DNA from: a virus
Virus record (IMG/VR): IMGVR_UViG_3300044796_000135
Coordinates: 1-62,730 of that record
Length of the DNA stretch: 62,730 bases
Direction: 5' to 3' (one strand)
Part shown: in pieces, positions 7,879 to 62,730 of the stretch
How positions within the stretch are numbered: the first letter of the stretch is position 1
Layout of the letters: each line of letters begins with the position of its first letter
Program-made: the position numbers and the translations under genes
Notes under the pieces: model-generated
Told to the model about the DNA's origin: nothing
What the model saw: only the letters and a program-made list of their open reading frames with translations
Databases searched by the model: none

Positions 7879-8036
7879 GCGGCGTTCCTCTTCGGCAGTT
7901 TGCACCACGAAGCAATGATCGACGCTTGCCAGCCGAATATTCTGAAGCGCGTGTGTTTCCATGAGCCATCAACAGCGTAGGCGGTTGCAATTGCATCATG
8001 CCATGGTCCAGGCATGAACTGGCGCCGGGACTTCAT
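7863..8036 (-). CDS. Trp-rich small protein, 57 aa
   Basis: ATG 8036 overlaps the upstream stop as ATGA; the 3' end overlaps the 56-aa gene by 16 bases in another frame. Contains MPGPWHDAIATAYAVDGSWK and FGWQASIIASWC. Not recognised. Confidence 0.5.
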   Translation of the reverse strand: MKSRRQFMPGPWHDAIATAYAVDGSWKHTRFRIFGWQASIIASWCKLPKRNAACPIQ

Positions 8037-8272
8037 AGCGGTTTCCTATGCACGATAACCTCATTCAGATACGCGTTCGTTTCGCCTAACTCATGCGACA
8101 GCCCAGCAACCTCGTCCATCACATCACAAAGAATAAGCGCGATCTGCGCCAGTAAATAGGTCTGGTTATCGGTCGGCTTTGCCTTTGCCAGCGCGCCACG
8201 TATTGCTGCATAGCGGGCGCTCCTTAGCTGCGGCGGCGTCATGTCCGTGCCGCCGATCCCGTCCTCGCTCAT
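8033..8272 (-). CDS. hypothetical helical protein, 79 aa
   Basis: ATGA overlaps on both sides. Mostly helical, with a hydrophobic stretch QTYLLAQIALILCDVMDEVA. No family recognised. Confidence 0.65.
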   Translation of the reverse strand: MSEDGIGGTDMTPPQLRSARYAAIRGALAKAKPTDNQTYLLAQIALILCDVMDEVAGLSHELGETNAYLNEVIVHRKPL

Positions 8273-54216: not shown

Positions 54217-54965
54217 AACGCCTCCTCATCGCCGCCACGCTGGCCCTAGCAGCCTGTGGCTCATCCCCGGCACCTACGCCAGTACCAAGTCCGCAGCCAA
54301 TCGTAGCCTACCCGAACGTCCACCCAGGTAACTCGCAATGGGTCATGGCTCCGGGTACATGGGCCGAATACGACTTCGATTCCTACACCGGAACGTTCAA
54401 CCCATTGAACGGCATGATTACCGTCGATCCAACGTCCGTGAAGGTGGTTCAGCAGGAGCGGCAGACCAATCTCGCGTACCACATGCCGCTGGATGCCTCA
54501 CAGCTTGCCATGGCGCGCGTCCAGACGAACGCGGGCTACGCGGCCACGACGGTTGACCCGACCCTGGCCTACACGCTGGTAGAGCGTCAGAGCGCCACGC
54601 TAATAGGGGAGGCGGCGAACCCAGGCGCGGCGTCTCAGGACCCACCAGAGCCGTACACCACGGTGAGCCCCGTTGTCGGCGAAGTCGTCAACACCATGAG
54701 CCTGGTCACGAAATTTGACGGAACCACGTTCTATTTCACGACGCGGTACACCACGATTGCTGTGGGTGTTACCTTTGATGGATTCCCCAACGCCACGGTC
54801 ACCACGCTCACCGAGAACCCCGGCGATGCTGGCAACAACGAGATGGCCTACGTGTGGGTCTTTTCTGGCGGCGAAATCGCGGAAGAGATAATCGGCTGGG
54901 TGGCGGCTGATGGTAGCCTCACGAATGGCGCTTTATTGCGACGGACGGGGATGGGGCGGAATTAG
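54213..54965 (+). CDS. secreted lipoprotein, 250 aa
   Basis: ATGA overlap with the o-spanin. Signal and lipobox MKRLLIAATLALAAC with Cys15, then a Pro-rich linker (PAPTPVPSPQPIVAYP) and a beta-rich domain. Phage lipoproteins of this kind can act in superinfection exclusion, but no family is recognised. Last gene of the late operon; its end overlaps the convergent early operon by four bases. Confidence 0.65.
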   Translation: MKRLLIAATLALAACGSSPAPTPVPSPQPIVAYPNVHPGNSQWVMAPGTWAEYDFDSYTGTFNPLNGMITVDPTSVKVVQQERQTNLAYHMPLDASQLAMARVQTNAGYAATTVDPTLAYTLVERQSATLIGEAANPGAASQDPPEPYTTVSPVVGEVVNTMSLVTKFDGTTFYFTTRYTTIAVGVTFDGFPNATVTTLTENPGDAGNNEMAYVWVFSGGEIAEEIIGWVAADGSLTNGALLRRTGMGRN

Positions 54966-55282
54966 AACGGGATATCATCGTCGCTTGATCTTGCCCGAAC
55001 ATCACGGCCAATCATCCAATCGTGAAGTCTCGCACGTTGTAGCCCAATAAAATCCCAGAACCGCTCGCGCCACGTTGGCGGACGATGCGCCCTATCATAG
55101 GATTCATAATACGCAGTCATCTCATCGCTGCTCAAATACCATCGCTCGCCGCAGTAATTGCATTGTGCCGCGCCGTCCCAATCAAGCTCGTAGTCTTCAT
55201 GGCAGCAATCGCCGTATGATTCTTCCTGATACCGGAACTGATCGTCGTCAATCTCGTCTTGGGTCCATTTGTGGTCGCTCAT
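54962..55282 (-). CDS. zinc-ribbon protein with SSB-like C-terminal tip
   Basis: A 106-aa protein. ATG 55282 (ATGA overlap). A Cys/His cluster (ESYGDCCHEDYELDWDGAAQ, CNYCGERW) suggests zinc binding. The C-terminus ends ARSSDDDIPF, identical in its last six residues to the protein-binding tip of bacterial SSB. The body shows no OB fold. It may recruit or block SSB-binding host proteins (for example exonuclease I, PriA, RecO); this is inference. Last gene of the leftward early operon. Confidence 0.7.
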   Translation of the reverse strand: MSDHKWTQDEIDDDQFRYQEESYGDCCHEDYELDWDGAAQCNYCGERWYLSSDEMTAYYESYDRAHRPPTWRERFWDFIGLQRARLHDWMIGRDVRARSSDDDIPF

Positions 55283-55518
55283 TCCTTCCCCCTCACCGCA
55301 GCGGCGGCGCGGCTCAATACGCACGTAATAGAATGCACTAACTTATCACGGTCTGGCAGTCGGCATTCTTCACCACAGATGTTGCACTCGCGAAACCATC
55401 CGTCCGAATCTTGTCCCTGCGTATAGGCGCGATCTGCCAACGCCTCCCTGCACGCGTCCAACTCGGCGCGGAGGGCGTCACGCTCTGCGATTAGTGTCCT
55501 GCTGTCAAAAACTGCCAT
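55279..55518 (-). CDS. coiled-coil zinc-finger protein, 79 aa
   Basis: N-terminal coiled coil (ERDALRAELDACREALADRA), then CNICGEEC and a later His/Cys pair that can complete a zinc finger. ATGA overlap downstream. Confidence 0.65.
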   Translation of the reverse strand: MAVFDSRTLIAERDALRAELDACREALADRAYTQGQDSDGWFRECNICGEECRLPDRDKLVHSITCVLSRAAAAVRGKE

Positions 55519-56671: not shown

Positions 56672-56943
56672 GGCTTGGTTTTCTTTCTTGCGTGGAACAA
56701 ATCGTAGGAAGCCTGTAACGCCATCCACATTTCTGGCTTCATGCACGGCTTCAAAACCTTAGAAAATCGCAACGCGTATGGAGCAGTCAGCGGGGCTTTA
56801 TGGTTGATAATCTCGCTGACGTGCTTCGGTGTCATCTTCGCTCGGCGCGCAAACTCAGCCTGTGACCAACCACGGATTTCAAGATATTCTTGTAAGTGAT
56901 CGCCGGGGTGGGTAGTCCAGTTTGGGTTAAATGCGTCGCTCAT
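56668..56943 (-). CDS. HigA-type HTH antitoxin-like protein (cassette A)
   Basis: A 91-aa protein. HPGDHLQEYLEIRGWSQAEF then ARRAKMTPKHVSEIINHKAP is the XRE/HigA pattern. No HigB-type toxin is adjacent. Ends KTKP with stop in ATGA overlap. Start follows the shared junction AAGGAGTAGCGGAGAATG. Confidence 0.75.
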   Translation of the reverse strand: MSDAFNPNWTTHPGDHLQEYLEIRGWSQAEFARRAKMTPKHVSEIINHKAPLTAPYALRFSKVLKPCMKPEMWMALQASYDLFHARKKTKP

Positions 56944-56982
56944 TCTCCGCTACTCCTTGTCCGGGGATGGGGTGGGTCATGG
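56941..56982 (-). repeat. cassette junction 1
   Basis: Contains GGACAAGGAGTAGCGGAG then ATG of cassette A, and on its other side AAGCCATGACCCACCCC from the end of cassette B. Thirty bases (56941-56970) are identical to 57348-57377. Confidence 0.9.
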
Positions 56983-57177
56983 CTTTGCTGTCCTTGTATA
57001 AAAATAAATGTAATCCTGAAACTTCATTAAAGCCGCGCCTGCAATACCGCCCCATTCAAATTCCGTAATATGGAAGCTGCCGTCCAGCATCCATCGGATA
57101 CAGCCCATAGTCGCAATCCATCCCAGCACCAATATCGTCATCCAGCCAACGATTTTGAGAAAAATATCAAAGCTCAT
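56977..57177 (-). CDS. small membrane protein, 66 aa (cassette B)
   Basis: Hydrophobic N-terminus (IFLKIVGWMTILVLGWIATM) and a second weaker segment (WGGIAGAALMKF). Ends TAKP. Framed by the same junction sequences as its neighbours. Confidence 0.65.
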   Translation of the reverse strand: MSFDIFLKIVGWMTILVLGWIATMGCIRWMLDGSFHITEFEWGGIAGAALMKFQDYIYFYTRTAKP

Positions 57178-57214
57178 GCTCCGCTACTCCTTGTCCGTCG
57201 AGTTGGTCATGGCT
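57175..57214 (-). repeat. cassette junction 2
   Basis: CGGACAAGGAGTAGCGGAGC then ATG of cassette B; the part before it reads ATGACCAACTCGACGGACAA, an eight-codon ORF (MTNSTDKE) that ends with the same GACAAGGAGTAG as the 261-aa gene. Confidence 0.9.
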
Positions 57215-57350
57215 TGCTCCAGAATGTTTTGCCGCATGTCGTTCCGATCCAAACGGTGCCTTCACCTTTCGCGGTCGCATACATGATGCAACAGCCGGTC
57301 CAGAGATGCCAAAGACAGTGACACCAGCATTTAATCCACCCGAGAATCAT
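57207..57350 (-). CDS. Cys/Trp-rich small protein, 47 aa (cassette C)
   Basis: ATG 57350 follows the shared junction. Sequence begins MILGWIKCWCHCLWHLWTGC, with possible metal-binding or membrane-interface character. Ends WSKP with a TGA in ATGA overlap. Confidence 0.6.
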   Translation of the reverse strand: MILGWIKCWCHCLWHLWTGCCIMYATAKGEGTVWIGTTCGKTFWSKP

Positions 57351-57377
57351 TCTCCGCTACTCCTTGTCCGGGGATGG
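57348..57377 (-). repeat. cassette junction 3 = 3' end of 261-aa gene
   Basis: These 30 bases are identical to 56941-56970. Here they encode the last residues (SPDKE) and stop of the 261-aa gene, then the start of cassette C. Confidence 0.9.
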
Positions 57378-58406: not shown

Positions 58407-58646
58407 CTACTTCTTCAGAAACGCCGGAATCGCGGCGGTCTTGTCAGTCGCGGCTTCGTTGATGGTCTTGGCGCGGACGTTCACAGGGCGAGCATCCTCA
58501 ACCAGAATCTCCGCACCCGTTGCTTTGAGCGCCGCAAGTTTGGCCTCGTATTTCTCAAGCGCGAGCGCGTAGTCTTTGGCGCTGCCGTCGTAGGGGATAT
58601 CGCCTGCATCGTGCGCGGTGAGGCGATAGCGGAGGACGTTTGTCAT
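58407..58646 (-). CDS. hypothetical protein, 79 aa
   Basis: Starts MTNVLRYRLTAHDAGDIPYD, followed by a helix (ALEKYEAKLAALKATGAEIL). Conserved-looking small partner next to the exonuclease (4-base overlap). Not recognised. Confidence 0.6.
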   Translation of the reverse strand: MTNVLRYRLTAHDAGDIPYDGSAKDYALALEKYEAKLAALKATGAEILVEDARPVNVRAKTINEAATDKTAAIPAFLKK

Positions 58647-59299
58647 GAGGCAGTTCCTTCTGTTGCATCCGGGATGTGAGTTTGCTTATGGCGCATGGAA
58701 GCTAGGGCGGCATCGCGCTCGGCCAGAACGTCCGCAATGCCCTTGATGAGCGCGCCATGCATTTCCTTGTCGGGGAAATGCCGAATCGTCAGCGGCGGCA
58801 ATTCGGGGTGGAAAAAGCTGAGATCCCACCACGCGCGGCCTGTAATGAGCAGCGAGCCCTGGACCTGCTGGATGTAATCGGTCGGGGCTTTGCCGTACTT
58901 CTGGTAGTAGAGCCGGGCTGCAATATGCCGCTCTGCCTTGAGGCATTTAATCTCAAGCCCCCCATCGTCGCCCACCAGGGCATCTGGCGAGCACCCGGCC
59001 AGTCCAGCATCATTGGTGACAAATCCCACGCGCTGCACGTCTGCATCTGTTGTGAAGGCATATAGATCCACCGCAGCCGCCTCCATGTCCTTGCCCCGGT
59101 TCATCCAGACGTTACCCTCGAAGGCGTCCAGGGTTTGGCCGGCAAATAGTTCCGCCGCCAGTTCGTTGGCATAGCCGCTGAGTGACTTGCTCGCCGCTCC
59201 GGTGCTGGTGACAAGGCGCGAGAACTCGCTAGCCGTGGGGATGCCGATGCGCGCTGCGGCCCATTCTGGCGTGCCCTGGACGCAATCTATGATTTTCAT
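58643..59299 (-). CDS. YqaJ-type viral recombinase/exonuclease
   Basis: A 218-aa protein. GTPEWAAARIGIPTASEFSR starts the fold; catalytic residues fit the lambda-exonuclease-like PD-(D/E)XK site: Asp106 in GCSPDALVG and Glu116-Lys118 in GGLEIKCL, with Gln near YIQQVQGSLLITG. It digests dsDNA ends to give ssDNA for the ERF protein. ATG 59299 is fixed by ATGA overlap with the 46-aa gene. Confidence 0.9.
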   Translation of the reverse strand: MKIIDCVQGTPEWAAARIGIPTASEFSRLVTSTGAASKSLSGYANELAAELFAGQTLDAFEGNVWMNRGKDMEAAAVDLYAFTTDADVQRVGFVTNDAGLAGCSPDALVGDDGGLEIKCLKAERHIAARLYYQKYGKAPTDYIQQVQGSLLITGRAWWDLSFFHPELPPLTIRHFPDKEMHGALIKGIADVLAERDAALASMRHKQTHIPDATEGTAS

Positions 59300-59436
59300 T
59301 TGCGAGATTCCATCCATATAGGCGGCTTTCCAATAAAGTTTGGATGCGGCTTTTTGACACAATCAATCTTGCAAGGACGCCACTTCTTGGTCCCGTGATG
59401 GCGTCTCATTCGGCGTCCGCACTTTTTACACTTCAC
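59296..59436 (-). CDS. basic zinc-ribbon protein, 46 aa
   Basis: GTG 59436 has GGAG eight bases upstream. MKCKKCGRRMRRHHGTKKWR then C..DC gives a CxxC-x-CxxxC zinc-ribbon. The ATGA overlap couples it to the exonuclease. Confidence 0.65.
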   Translation of the reverse strand: MKCKKCGRRMRRHHGTKKWRPCKIDCVKKPHPNFIGKPPIWMESRK

Positions 59437-59616: not shown

Positions 59617-60123
59617 TTAGACTGTTTGCGGTTGCGGAGCAGGGTCAGCGCTTGCCACCTGTTCTGGCGCTGCATCCAGCAACTTCACACCACCGTTGAC
59701 ATGAACTTGCGTAATGATCGGCAGATTGTTGAGCGTATCTCCGAAGTCGCCAAGCATCGTCTTCTTGAGATCATGGCGCTCCTTCTTCAGTTCCGCGTCC
59801 TTCACCGCCGCAACCGCTTCATCCTCGAACGCTTTCAGCTTCTCATAGGACGACGTATCAACCTTCGTGATAATCCATCGCGCCTGCTCGTTGCTCGTGA
59901 AAGACGGCGGTGCGTCGGCCTTGACGATTTTGACCACGCTAACGCGATGACGTGTGCCAGTTTCGACGGCGACAAGATCGCCCTCTTTGATAGATGGATC
60001 AAGCGTTTTGAAAAACTCGCGTTTGGCTGTCGGCTTGTCGCCATCATCCGCCTCAAAAATTCCGAGCATTCCACGTGCCTTATCGTGGAGCAAGAAAACG
60101 GCGAGGCTATAGTTCTGCATCAT
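59617..60123 (-). CDS. hypothetical protein between ERF and exonuclease, 168 aa
   Basis: AAGGA before ATG 60123. Beta-rich first half (VFLLHDKARGMLGIFEADDG, EGDLVAVETGTRHRVSVVKI), then a coiled coil (FEDEAVAAVKDAELKKERHD). It sits inside the recombination module, so it may bind ssDNA or regulate; no family recognised. Confidence 0.65.
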   Translation of the reverse strand: MMQNYSLAVFLLHDKARGMLGIFEADDGDKPTAKREFFKTLDPSIKEGDLVAVETGTRHRVSVVKIVKADAPPSFTSNEQARWIITKVDTSSYEKLKAFEDEAVAAVKDAELKKERHDLKKTMLGDFGDTLNNLPIITQVHVNGGVKLLDAAPEQVASADPAPQPQTV

Positions 60124-60150: not shown

Positions 60151-60879
60151 TTACTTCTTACGTGCTTCCAGGGCCATCTTGGCCTTGTTGAACTGGCTGG
60201 CGGGGATCGCCGCGAGGTTTTCCACCCCCATGAACTTCAGCGTCTTTTCGAGGCTGGCTTTCGTTTCAGTGATGAGGGTTACTAAGATCGTGACTTGTTC
60301 TTCAGTGATATTGCTAACCGGGCCACTACCGCCCGCACCGTTTCCATCATCGTCGTATTCGCCCTCGGCGATGTTGAAAACCATCTTCAACAATCCGCGA
60401 CGGGCATAGGATATTGCCGACATGGTGGCGTGGGTTTTGGTCATTACATCGCCGCCTTTCGCCCCCTTGCCGTCGTTCGGCATATCCAGATGGCGCTTTT
60501 CCTCGTGGCCGTTTGCGTGCGTGACTTTGCAGACAACGCGGACGTGACCTTCCGGTGCGCCGTCCTCCGTGTCGAAACTGGGCGCAAACCCATGCCTTGA
60601 ATAGATTGGCCGGATTGCATTGTCGAGCGCGGCATAGGATGCATACTTGCTGCGGGTTTGCGGGTTTGCGGCGTCCTGCGAGACGGGCCGCAACTCGGCC
60701 TGCGTTTTGTTCATGGCGTCCGAGTAGGCCAGCTTGGCACGGCGTATTTCGATGCGCTCAGCAAGGTCATAAAGGCGCGTCATCTTTTCGGCATCCACAT
60801 TAGGATCTGTGGCGGCGCGGGAGATGACCTGCATCAGCGTGGCGGCCTCGGATTGCACAGATGGAAGTTGCTCGTTCAT
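60151..60879 (-). CDS. erf: ERF family ssDNA-annealing recombinase
   Basis: A 242-aa protein. Contains AKLAYSDAMNKTQAELRPVS, then KYASYAALDNAIRPIYSRHG and THATMSAISYARRGLLKMVF, the ERF core. It anneals complementary strands made by the exonuclease, and supports circularisation and recombination. C-terminal part is a helical tail. Confidence 0.93.
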   Translation of the reverse strand: MNEQLPSVQSEAATLMQVISRAATDPNVDAEKMTRLYDLAERIEIRRAKLAYSDAMNKTQAELRPVSQDAANPQTRSKYASYAALDNAIRPIYSRHGFAPSFDTEDGAPEGHVRVVCKVTHANGHEEKRHLDMPNDGKGAKGGDVMTKTHATMSAISYARRGLLKMVFNIAEGEYDDDGNGAGGSGPVSNITEEQVTILVTLITETKASLEKTLKFMGVENLAAIPASQFNKAKMALEARKK

Positions 60880-61786: not shown

Positions 61787-62730
61787 GGCGCAACCACTTC
61801 CACAAACTTCTCATGCCCATACGCGCCCTTGGTTTCTTTCAGTATCTCCGCGAGCGTATATGTTTTCTTCAACGCACCCTTGCGCGCCATGAAATCCTGC
61901 GTCCCGTACTGACACGCGCCAGTGACCATGCGGTACACAAACGCCCAGTCCTCGGGGGATTTGCGCGTCGTCTTGGCCATGTTTCGGTATTGCTCGATAT
62001 CACGCGTGCCAGTCTTGAATTGCAGTTCGCGGACGGCTTCTTCGATGGTCTTGCCATGCGCGTTATGCTGACCCGACTGAGCCACATAGAACTTATCGCC
62101 GATGACCTTTTGGTTTTTGATCTTGGAGTGACGACAGGCGAGGACCGTAACGCCGTGTGCCTGCTTCGAGGACAGCACGACGCAGCCAATGCCGTCCAGG
62201 ATCGTGAATTTGCTGTAGCCGCCTGTGTAGAGTTTGCCAGCGATTAGGGAGGCGTCTTTGTAGATGGACAGGTAGCCGCCGACGCTGGTGAGGGCGTCGA
62301 GCTTGGCGCTGGTGTTGATGTACAGGTAGCCGCCGACGCTGGTGAGGGCCGGGGCGTCGAACTTGGCGCTGCTGTTGATGGACAGGTAGCCGCCGACGCT
62401 GGTGAGGGCGTCGAGCTTGGCGCTGCTGTGGATGGACAGGTCGCCGCCGACGCTGGTGAGGGCGTCGAGCTTGGCGCTGCTGTTGATGTACAGGTCGCCG
62501 CCGACGCTGGTGAGGGCCGGGGCGTCGAGCTTGGCGCTGCTGTGGATGGACAGGTCGCCGCCGACGCTGGTGAGGGCGTCGAGCTTGGCGCTGCTGTTGA
62601 TGTACAGGTCGCCGCCGACGCTGGTGAGGGCCGGGGCGTCGAACTTGGCGCTGCTGTTGATGGACAGGTAGCCGCCGACGCTGGTGAGGGCGTCGAGCTT
62701 GGCGCTGGTGTTGATGTACAGGTAGCCGCC
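61783..62730 (-). CDS. 54-bp-repeat protein, C-terminal part (continued from base 1)
   Basis: About eight more 18- or 20-residue units (some carry an extra Ala-Pro, DAPALTSV) are followed by a unique C-terminal domain of about 150 residues from near 62260. That domain contains segments such as GCVVLSSKQAHGVTVLACRH and HNAHGKTIEEAVRELQF, and I recall it from phage proteins of unknown function that often follow similar repeat tracts. If the ends share the 6-nt overlap described in the findings, the whole protein is about 411 residues. The stop at 61783 overlaps the next start by ATGA. The repeat units are nearly identical, which points to recent expansion or gene conversion. Confidence 0.85.
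   Translation of the reverse strand, partial: GGYLYINTSAKLDALTSVGGYLSINSSAKFDAPALTSVGGDLYINSSAKLDALTSVGGDLSIHSSAKLDAPALTSVGGDLYINSSAKLDALTSVGGDLSIHSSAKLDALTSVGGYLSINSSAKFDAPALTSVGGYLYINTSAKLDALTSVGGYLSIYKDASLIAGKLYTGGYSKFTILDGIGCVVLSSKQAHGVTVLACRHSKIKNQKVIGDKFYVAQSGQHNAHGKTIEEAVRELQFKTGTRDIEQYRNMAKTTRKSPEDWAFVYRMVTGACQYGTQDFMARKGALKKTYTLAEILKETKGAYGHEKFVEVVAP
62258..62730 (-). repeat. 54/60-bp tandem repeat, right part
   Basis: The hexamer gacgct recurs at 62281, 62335, 62395, 62449, 62503, 62563, 62617 and 62677, giving periods of 54 or 60 bp; the 60-bp units carry a 6-bp Ala-Pro insertion. Period and reading frame continue into the left end of the window. Confidence 0.97.

Follow-up and report, generated by a model that had tools for sequence, protein, structure and literature searches.

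The window, that is the whole 62,730-nucleotide stretch of viral DNA that was analysed, contains on its minus strand an open reading frame (54962..55282) with a 106-residue product whose C-terminus reads RARSSDDDIPF. A ribosome-binding site, gagggggaagga (55283..55294, minus strand), adjoins the ATG of this gene, and the ATG overlaps the stop codon of the upstream gene by four bases (ATGA). Because of this strong ribosome-binding site and the overlap, the frame is very likely a real gene, and it was also matched by a profile devoid of the C-terminal tip (see below). The upstream gene (55279..55518, minus strand) encodes 79 residues, for which family searches gave nothing above cut-off. The same leftward run includes a YqaJ-type exonuclease (58643..59362, minus strand; Pfam PF09588, E 1e-23), an Erf-type single-strand annealing protein (60151..60879, minus strand; phrog_155, E 9e-40) and, between the two, a 168-residue protein with PHROG matches of unknown function (59617..60123, minus strand). 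The presence of Erf and YqaJ bears out the assignment of the gene to a recombination or early operon in the first-pass annotation. Within this early run the tip gene is the most distal member and stands tail to tail with convergent rightward genes.

Three repeat structures were seen elsewhere in the window. The same 31-nt spacer, which carries a ribosome-binding site, precedes each of three small genes (56940-57377), and a 30-base repeat, present in about 18 copies, forms an array within an open reading frame (2412-2953). The two ends of the record (1-217 and 62259-62730) carry an identical 54-base tandem repeat, within one open repeat-bearing gene, and for this reason the record probably represents a circular or permuted genome that was broken inside a repeat.

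The last six residues of the tip protein, DDDIPF (residues 101-106; 54965..54982, minus strand), are those of the acidic C-terminal tip of bacterial SSB, as had been claimed on first reading and as the translation confirmed. Using the C-terminal composition of 738 open reading frames, the chance of such an end was estimated at about 6e-8 per frame for DDDIPF and about 2e-6 for [DE]3[ILV]PF. No second SSB-like C-terminus was found among the 1246 stop-to-stop frames of at least 30 residues in the window.

The body of the protein is of a different kind. In an alignment of ten members, residues 26-49 (55136..55207, minus strand) form a zinc ribbon with invariant C26, H28, D30, Y31, G37, C41, C44 and W48, modelled by AlphaFold2 as three short strands with a pLDDT of about 91-92. 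The Cys pairs described in the first-pass annotation were thereby corrected in part: C41-x-x-C44 is conserved, whereas the other pair is C26-x-H28, C27 being variable. From this ligand pattern we infer that C26, H28, C41 and C44 would bind zinc. Two helices follow (residues 52-66 and 70-102; 54977..55129, minus strand) with a net positive and poorly conserved sequence. The N-terminus is strongly acidic and the middle region net positive, the protein being acidic overall with a pI of 4.4-5.2. The whole model had a mean pLDDT of 79 and a pTM of 0.41, with lower confidence at the C-terminal end. It consists of a zinc ribbon and helices, and no match to PF00436 was found in the window, in agreement with the earlier statement that the protein has no OB-fold pattern; a canonical SSB could be ruled out on the same two grounds. 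A fold search with the model against the PDB and BFVD gave nothing significant, only a weak resemblance to zinc-ribbon fragments, and PDB chains searched with a sequence profile showed no convincing match.

Direct searches with the window protein detected no relatives in phages, plasmids, viral contigs, genome contigs or 385 alphaproteobacterial genomes, all matches lying in the noise (E 0.02-0.1), and a zinc-domain profile matched nothing in 398 genomes of the phylum. The virus record as a whole has no close relatives. One clear relative of the protein, L176, came from scanning DNA for a pattern that places Cys-Gly some 55 residues ahead of DDDIPF. The resulting two-member profile then gave L271 and L273, both ending in HDDEIPF; it was the zinc motif that led to these two proteins, since the tip pattern in use does not allow such an end. 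With the L273 protein as query we retrieved WAX24380.1 of the Bradyrhizobium phage ppBeUSDA76-2, which ends in DDDIPF and whose gene sits in an Erf-YqaJ-NinB operon. Searches of Pfam, PHROGs and NCBIfam with family members gave no significant match, the best E-values being 0.015 to 0.027 and confined to single members. Two candidate domains were rejected: the CapR homology domain (PF21817) reached 15.8 bits against a curated cut-off of 24.2 in one of ten members, and DUF7296, a Pfam hint, scored below its cut-off and was not common to the relatives.

Profiles ending well short of the tip were run on the viral contigs and retrieved 11 distinct loci in all, ten of which end in DDDIPF or DDEIPF. 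The exception, L288 (about 7932-8225), joins the zinc domain of the family to an unrelated C-terminus and represents a natural tip-less variant. A relative in Rhizobium phage RHph_I3_18 (88 residues) likewise has the zinc domain without the tip, and no tip was seen in the reading frames just downstream of these two tip-less genes. Conservation of the tip in homologues, the check proposed by the first-pass annotation, thus came out mostly in its favour. A tip-less profile of ten relatives found the window protein at E 3e-9, with the next match among 737 window frames at 0.5, and the homology of the window protein is therefore independent of the tip. An acidic C-terminal tip ending in Ile-Pro-Phe, like that of bacterial SSB, was present in the window protein as DDDIPF and in ten relatives as DD[DE]IPF. 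The zinc-ribbon/helix proteins with an SSB-type tip are a new phage family, one missing from Pfam, PHROGs and NCBIfam.

Among ten aligned members the mean pairwise identity was 91% for the tip, 55% for the zinc domain and 33% for the segment between them, and the codons of the tip varied synonymously. When the tip residues were left out of tree building, the D/E site required five changes on the resulting tree, at least three of them being forced by well-supported branches, while the other five tip residues were unchanged. The window member kept all six tip residues along a branch of 2.46 changes per column. By identity per segment and by the tree, conservation of the tip is independent of that of the remaining protein, as expected of an SSB-tip mimic, and these sequence comparisons show that it is under selection.

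The phage relatives from Bradyrhizobium, Rhizobium and Sphingopyxis suggested alphaproteobacterial hosts as the comparison group for the window virus. In a survey of SSB tips, 31 loci were read, of which 30 were counted as alphaproteobacterial SSB and one was a phage SSB. DDEIPF (19/30) and DDDIPF (7/30) were the two commonest host tips, and the phage family uses the same two, with six and five occurrences, respectively. To judge from these data, the phage family and the host SSBs vary at the same tip site in the same manner. The match to SSB is limited to the last six residues, since the preceding hydrophobic residue that is common in SSBs is mostly absent in the family.

In the pockets that receive the C-terminus of SSB (SSB-Ct), the terminal Phe is buried, its carboxyl group is held by basic residues and the Asp side chains are contacted; the terminal Phe is needed for binding (PMC10164576). 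Because the family keeps exactly these elements, Phe, carboxyl and Asp, at a free C-terminus, docking into SSB-Ct pockets would be the simplest reading. We consider it likely that the phage makes a mimic of the SSB tip which docks into the SSB-tip pockets of host DNA-maintenance enzymes. Sequence and evolution lend mimicry partial support. The near-uniqueness of the tip protein within its genomes, the scarcity of canonical SSB, the placing of the gene on the strand of Erf and the use of an SSB tail by phage annealases (all described below) also speak for it, and the tip-less zinc-domain relatives L288 and RHph_I3_18 count against it, as does the restriction of the match to six residues. In the proposed mechanism, a small body made of the CHCC zinc ribbon and the long helix would present, on a flexible C-terminus, the last six residues of the host SSB. 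The tip would dock into the pocket, composed of a hydrophobic hole, a basic lip and a basic ridge, of PriA, RecO, RecQ, RecG or exonuclease I. The SSB tetramer offers four tips, against which one weak tip would be a poor competitor unless a further contact helped. Since a single tip would be weak against abundant SSB, such a contact is probably made by the zinc ribbon and helix and would select one partner or one place. The outcome, which we infer together with the docking, would be either capture, with recruitment to phage replication or recombination, or competitive blocking of one host enzyme. Recruitment is slightly preferred because of the recombination operon, whereas the position among accessory genes favours blocking.

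The genome context of the family also bears on two other explanations. Erf occurs in the window and likewise in 6 of 13 other records, on the strand of the tip gene every time, and YqaJ in 5 of the 13; the tip gene is last or nearly last of the early run, ahead of oppositely oriented genes, in L176 and L300 as in the window. The tip may be read by a phage partner, Erf or another recombination protein, with the zinc protein serving phage recombination as loader or mediator. The annealases Sak4 and Sak80alpha use an SSB tail, Sak4 and Sak acting together with it (PMC5928155, PMC11846896), and for this reason an Erf-type partner is to be regarded as the main rival to docking into host pockets. 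The scarcity of canonical SSB also points this way: the window and 11 of the 12 other records searched gave none, a count that covers the PF00436 type only and in which some records may be incomplete. However, several members' records have no Erf or YqaJ matches and the tip matches the variants of the host SSB, and we regard a phage partner as unlikely overall. The same scarcity of canonical SSB, combined with the net positive middle region, would suit an unusual ssDNA-binding protein that replaces SSB, its zinc ribbon and helix coating or capping DNA and its tip acting as in SSB. This is improbable for a protein that is acidic overall and for which no OB fold is predicted, and one phage (G402), in which a canonical SSB adjoins Erf, carries the tip protein and SSB together. 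In seven relatives' records that were read almost whole, a loose tip pattern matched only the family protein, save for the canonical SSB of G402; an eighth record, G403, was left out of this count as its gene-bearing part was not covered.

The C-terminus might also be a signal for degradation, folding or oligomerisation that merely resembles the SSB tip. C-terminal motifs can presumably have such roles, and the binding of the tip to a pocket is itself predicted from sequence, but on this view it is hard to see why the ends should be identical to both common variants of the host SSB and show the same D/E interchange, which makes a signal very improbable. Least credible of all, to the point of being nearly negligible, is chance or shared ancestry without selection on the tip. 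The members are homologous and hence not independent draws, yet this explanation is contradicted by a tip still 91% identical where the preceding segment has fallen to 33%, by the synonymous codon variation and by the retention of the tip on long branches.

DDDIPF ends also occur on other viral proteins. Among the 120 matches listed, which comprised 116 open reading frames of at least 60 residues, the canonical SSB cluster accounted for just 30 of the 116, and the notion that any DDDIPF end marks a canonical SSB was ruled out. The listed frames further included 18 in a small-protein cluster, whose tested member is SSB according to PHROGs too, six zinc-ribbon helicases, four in a 77-residue family and many singletons. 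The helicase-like proteins (L049, L072, L077, L124, L128 and L085) have about 560-630 residues, zinc ribbons and DDDIPF ends, while L018, L037, L045 and L083 form a family of 76-79 residues with a DDDIPF end, of which L018 matches phrog_1811 (unknown function). L201 and L239 encode a small probable zinc protein of about 145 residues (CGHC ... C.DCGATGDIGQ ... FYKYWEQ) ending in DDDDIPF or EDDDIPF. A 79-residue protein near a YqaJ gene (L007, 9536-9775) has the C-terminus ADDEIPF and a weak match to a PHROG family named SSB, and the C-terminal part of a phage primase/helicase (L117, 3-464; phrog_239) ends in DDDIPF. Phages thus seem to use the SSB tip as a portable module, with the zinc-ribbon/helix family as one well-documented case.

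Some twenty host DNA enzymes are organised through the SSB tip as a hub, and E. coli does not survive its loss (PMC10164576). If the family acts as a mimic, this hub would be open to tapping by mimicry, the protein would point to the SSB partner that matters most in infection, and it would be a natural starting point for compounds directed against SSB-tip pockets. We see about even chances that the family represents a dedicated class of phage host-takeover proteins, in which a copied SSB tip on a non-SSB body captures or blocks a chosen SSB-interacting host enzyme; such a class would be the natural counterpart of synthetic SSB-tip inhibitors. The family is directly testable, as its member WAX24380.1 is encoded by a named prophage, Bradyrhizobium phage ppBeUSDA76-2. 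In the open-licence full texts searched, use of the SSB tip by a phage protein other than SSB was not reported. Docking of the SSB tip is a known principle of interaction, and what appears to be new, as far as sequences indicate, is the family and the non-SSB phage body.

Compared with known systems, the family shares with bacterial SSB and with phage SSBs such as that of HK620 the final residues DDDIPF or DDEIPF, which follow a variable stretch and end in a free C-terminus. In SSB a long disordered linker joins this tip to an OB-fold tetramer, whereas in the family it follows a zinc ribbon and a helix. The zinc-ribbon helicases of phages (e.g. L049, 566 residues, ResIII/Helicase_C) likewise combine a zinc ribbon with a terminal DDDIPF, but they are large and a relationship to the small tip proteins was undetectable. 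DdrB of Deinococcus also has an SSB-like C-terminus on a protein other than a classical SSB; unlike what is proposed here, it binds and anneals ssDNA and has no phage context, and its purported SSB-like motif was reported to be dispensable for radioresistance (PMC3834827), which counts against mimicry. Finally, gp5.9 and Abc2, which target RecBCD, are small proteins with which phages act on DNA-maintenance enzymes of the host, as the tip family would; they are a functional parallel only, not being described as users of the SSB tip in the part of that source consulted (PMC9836394).
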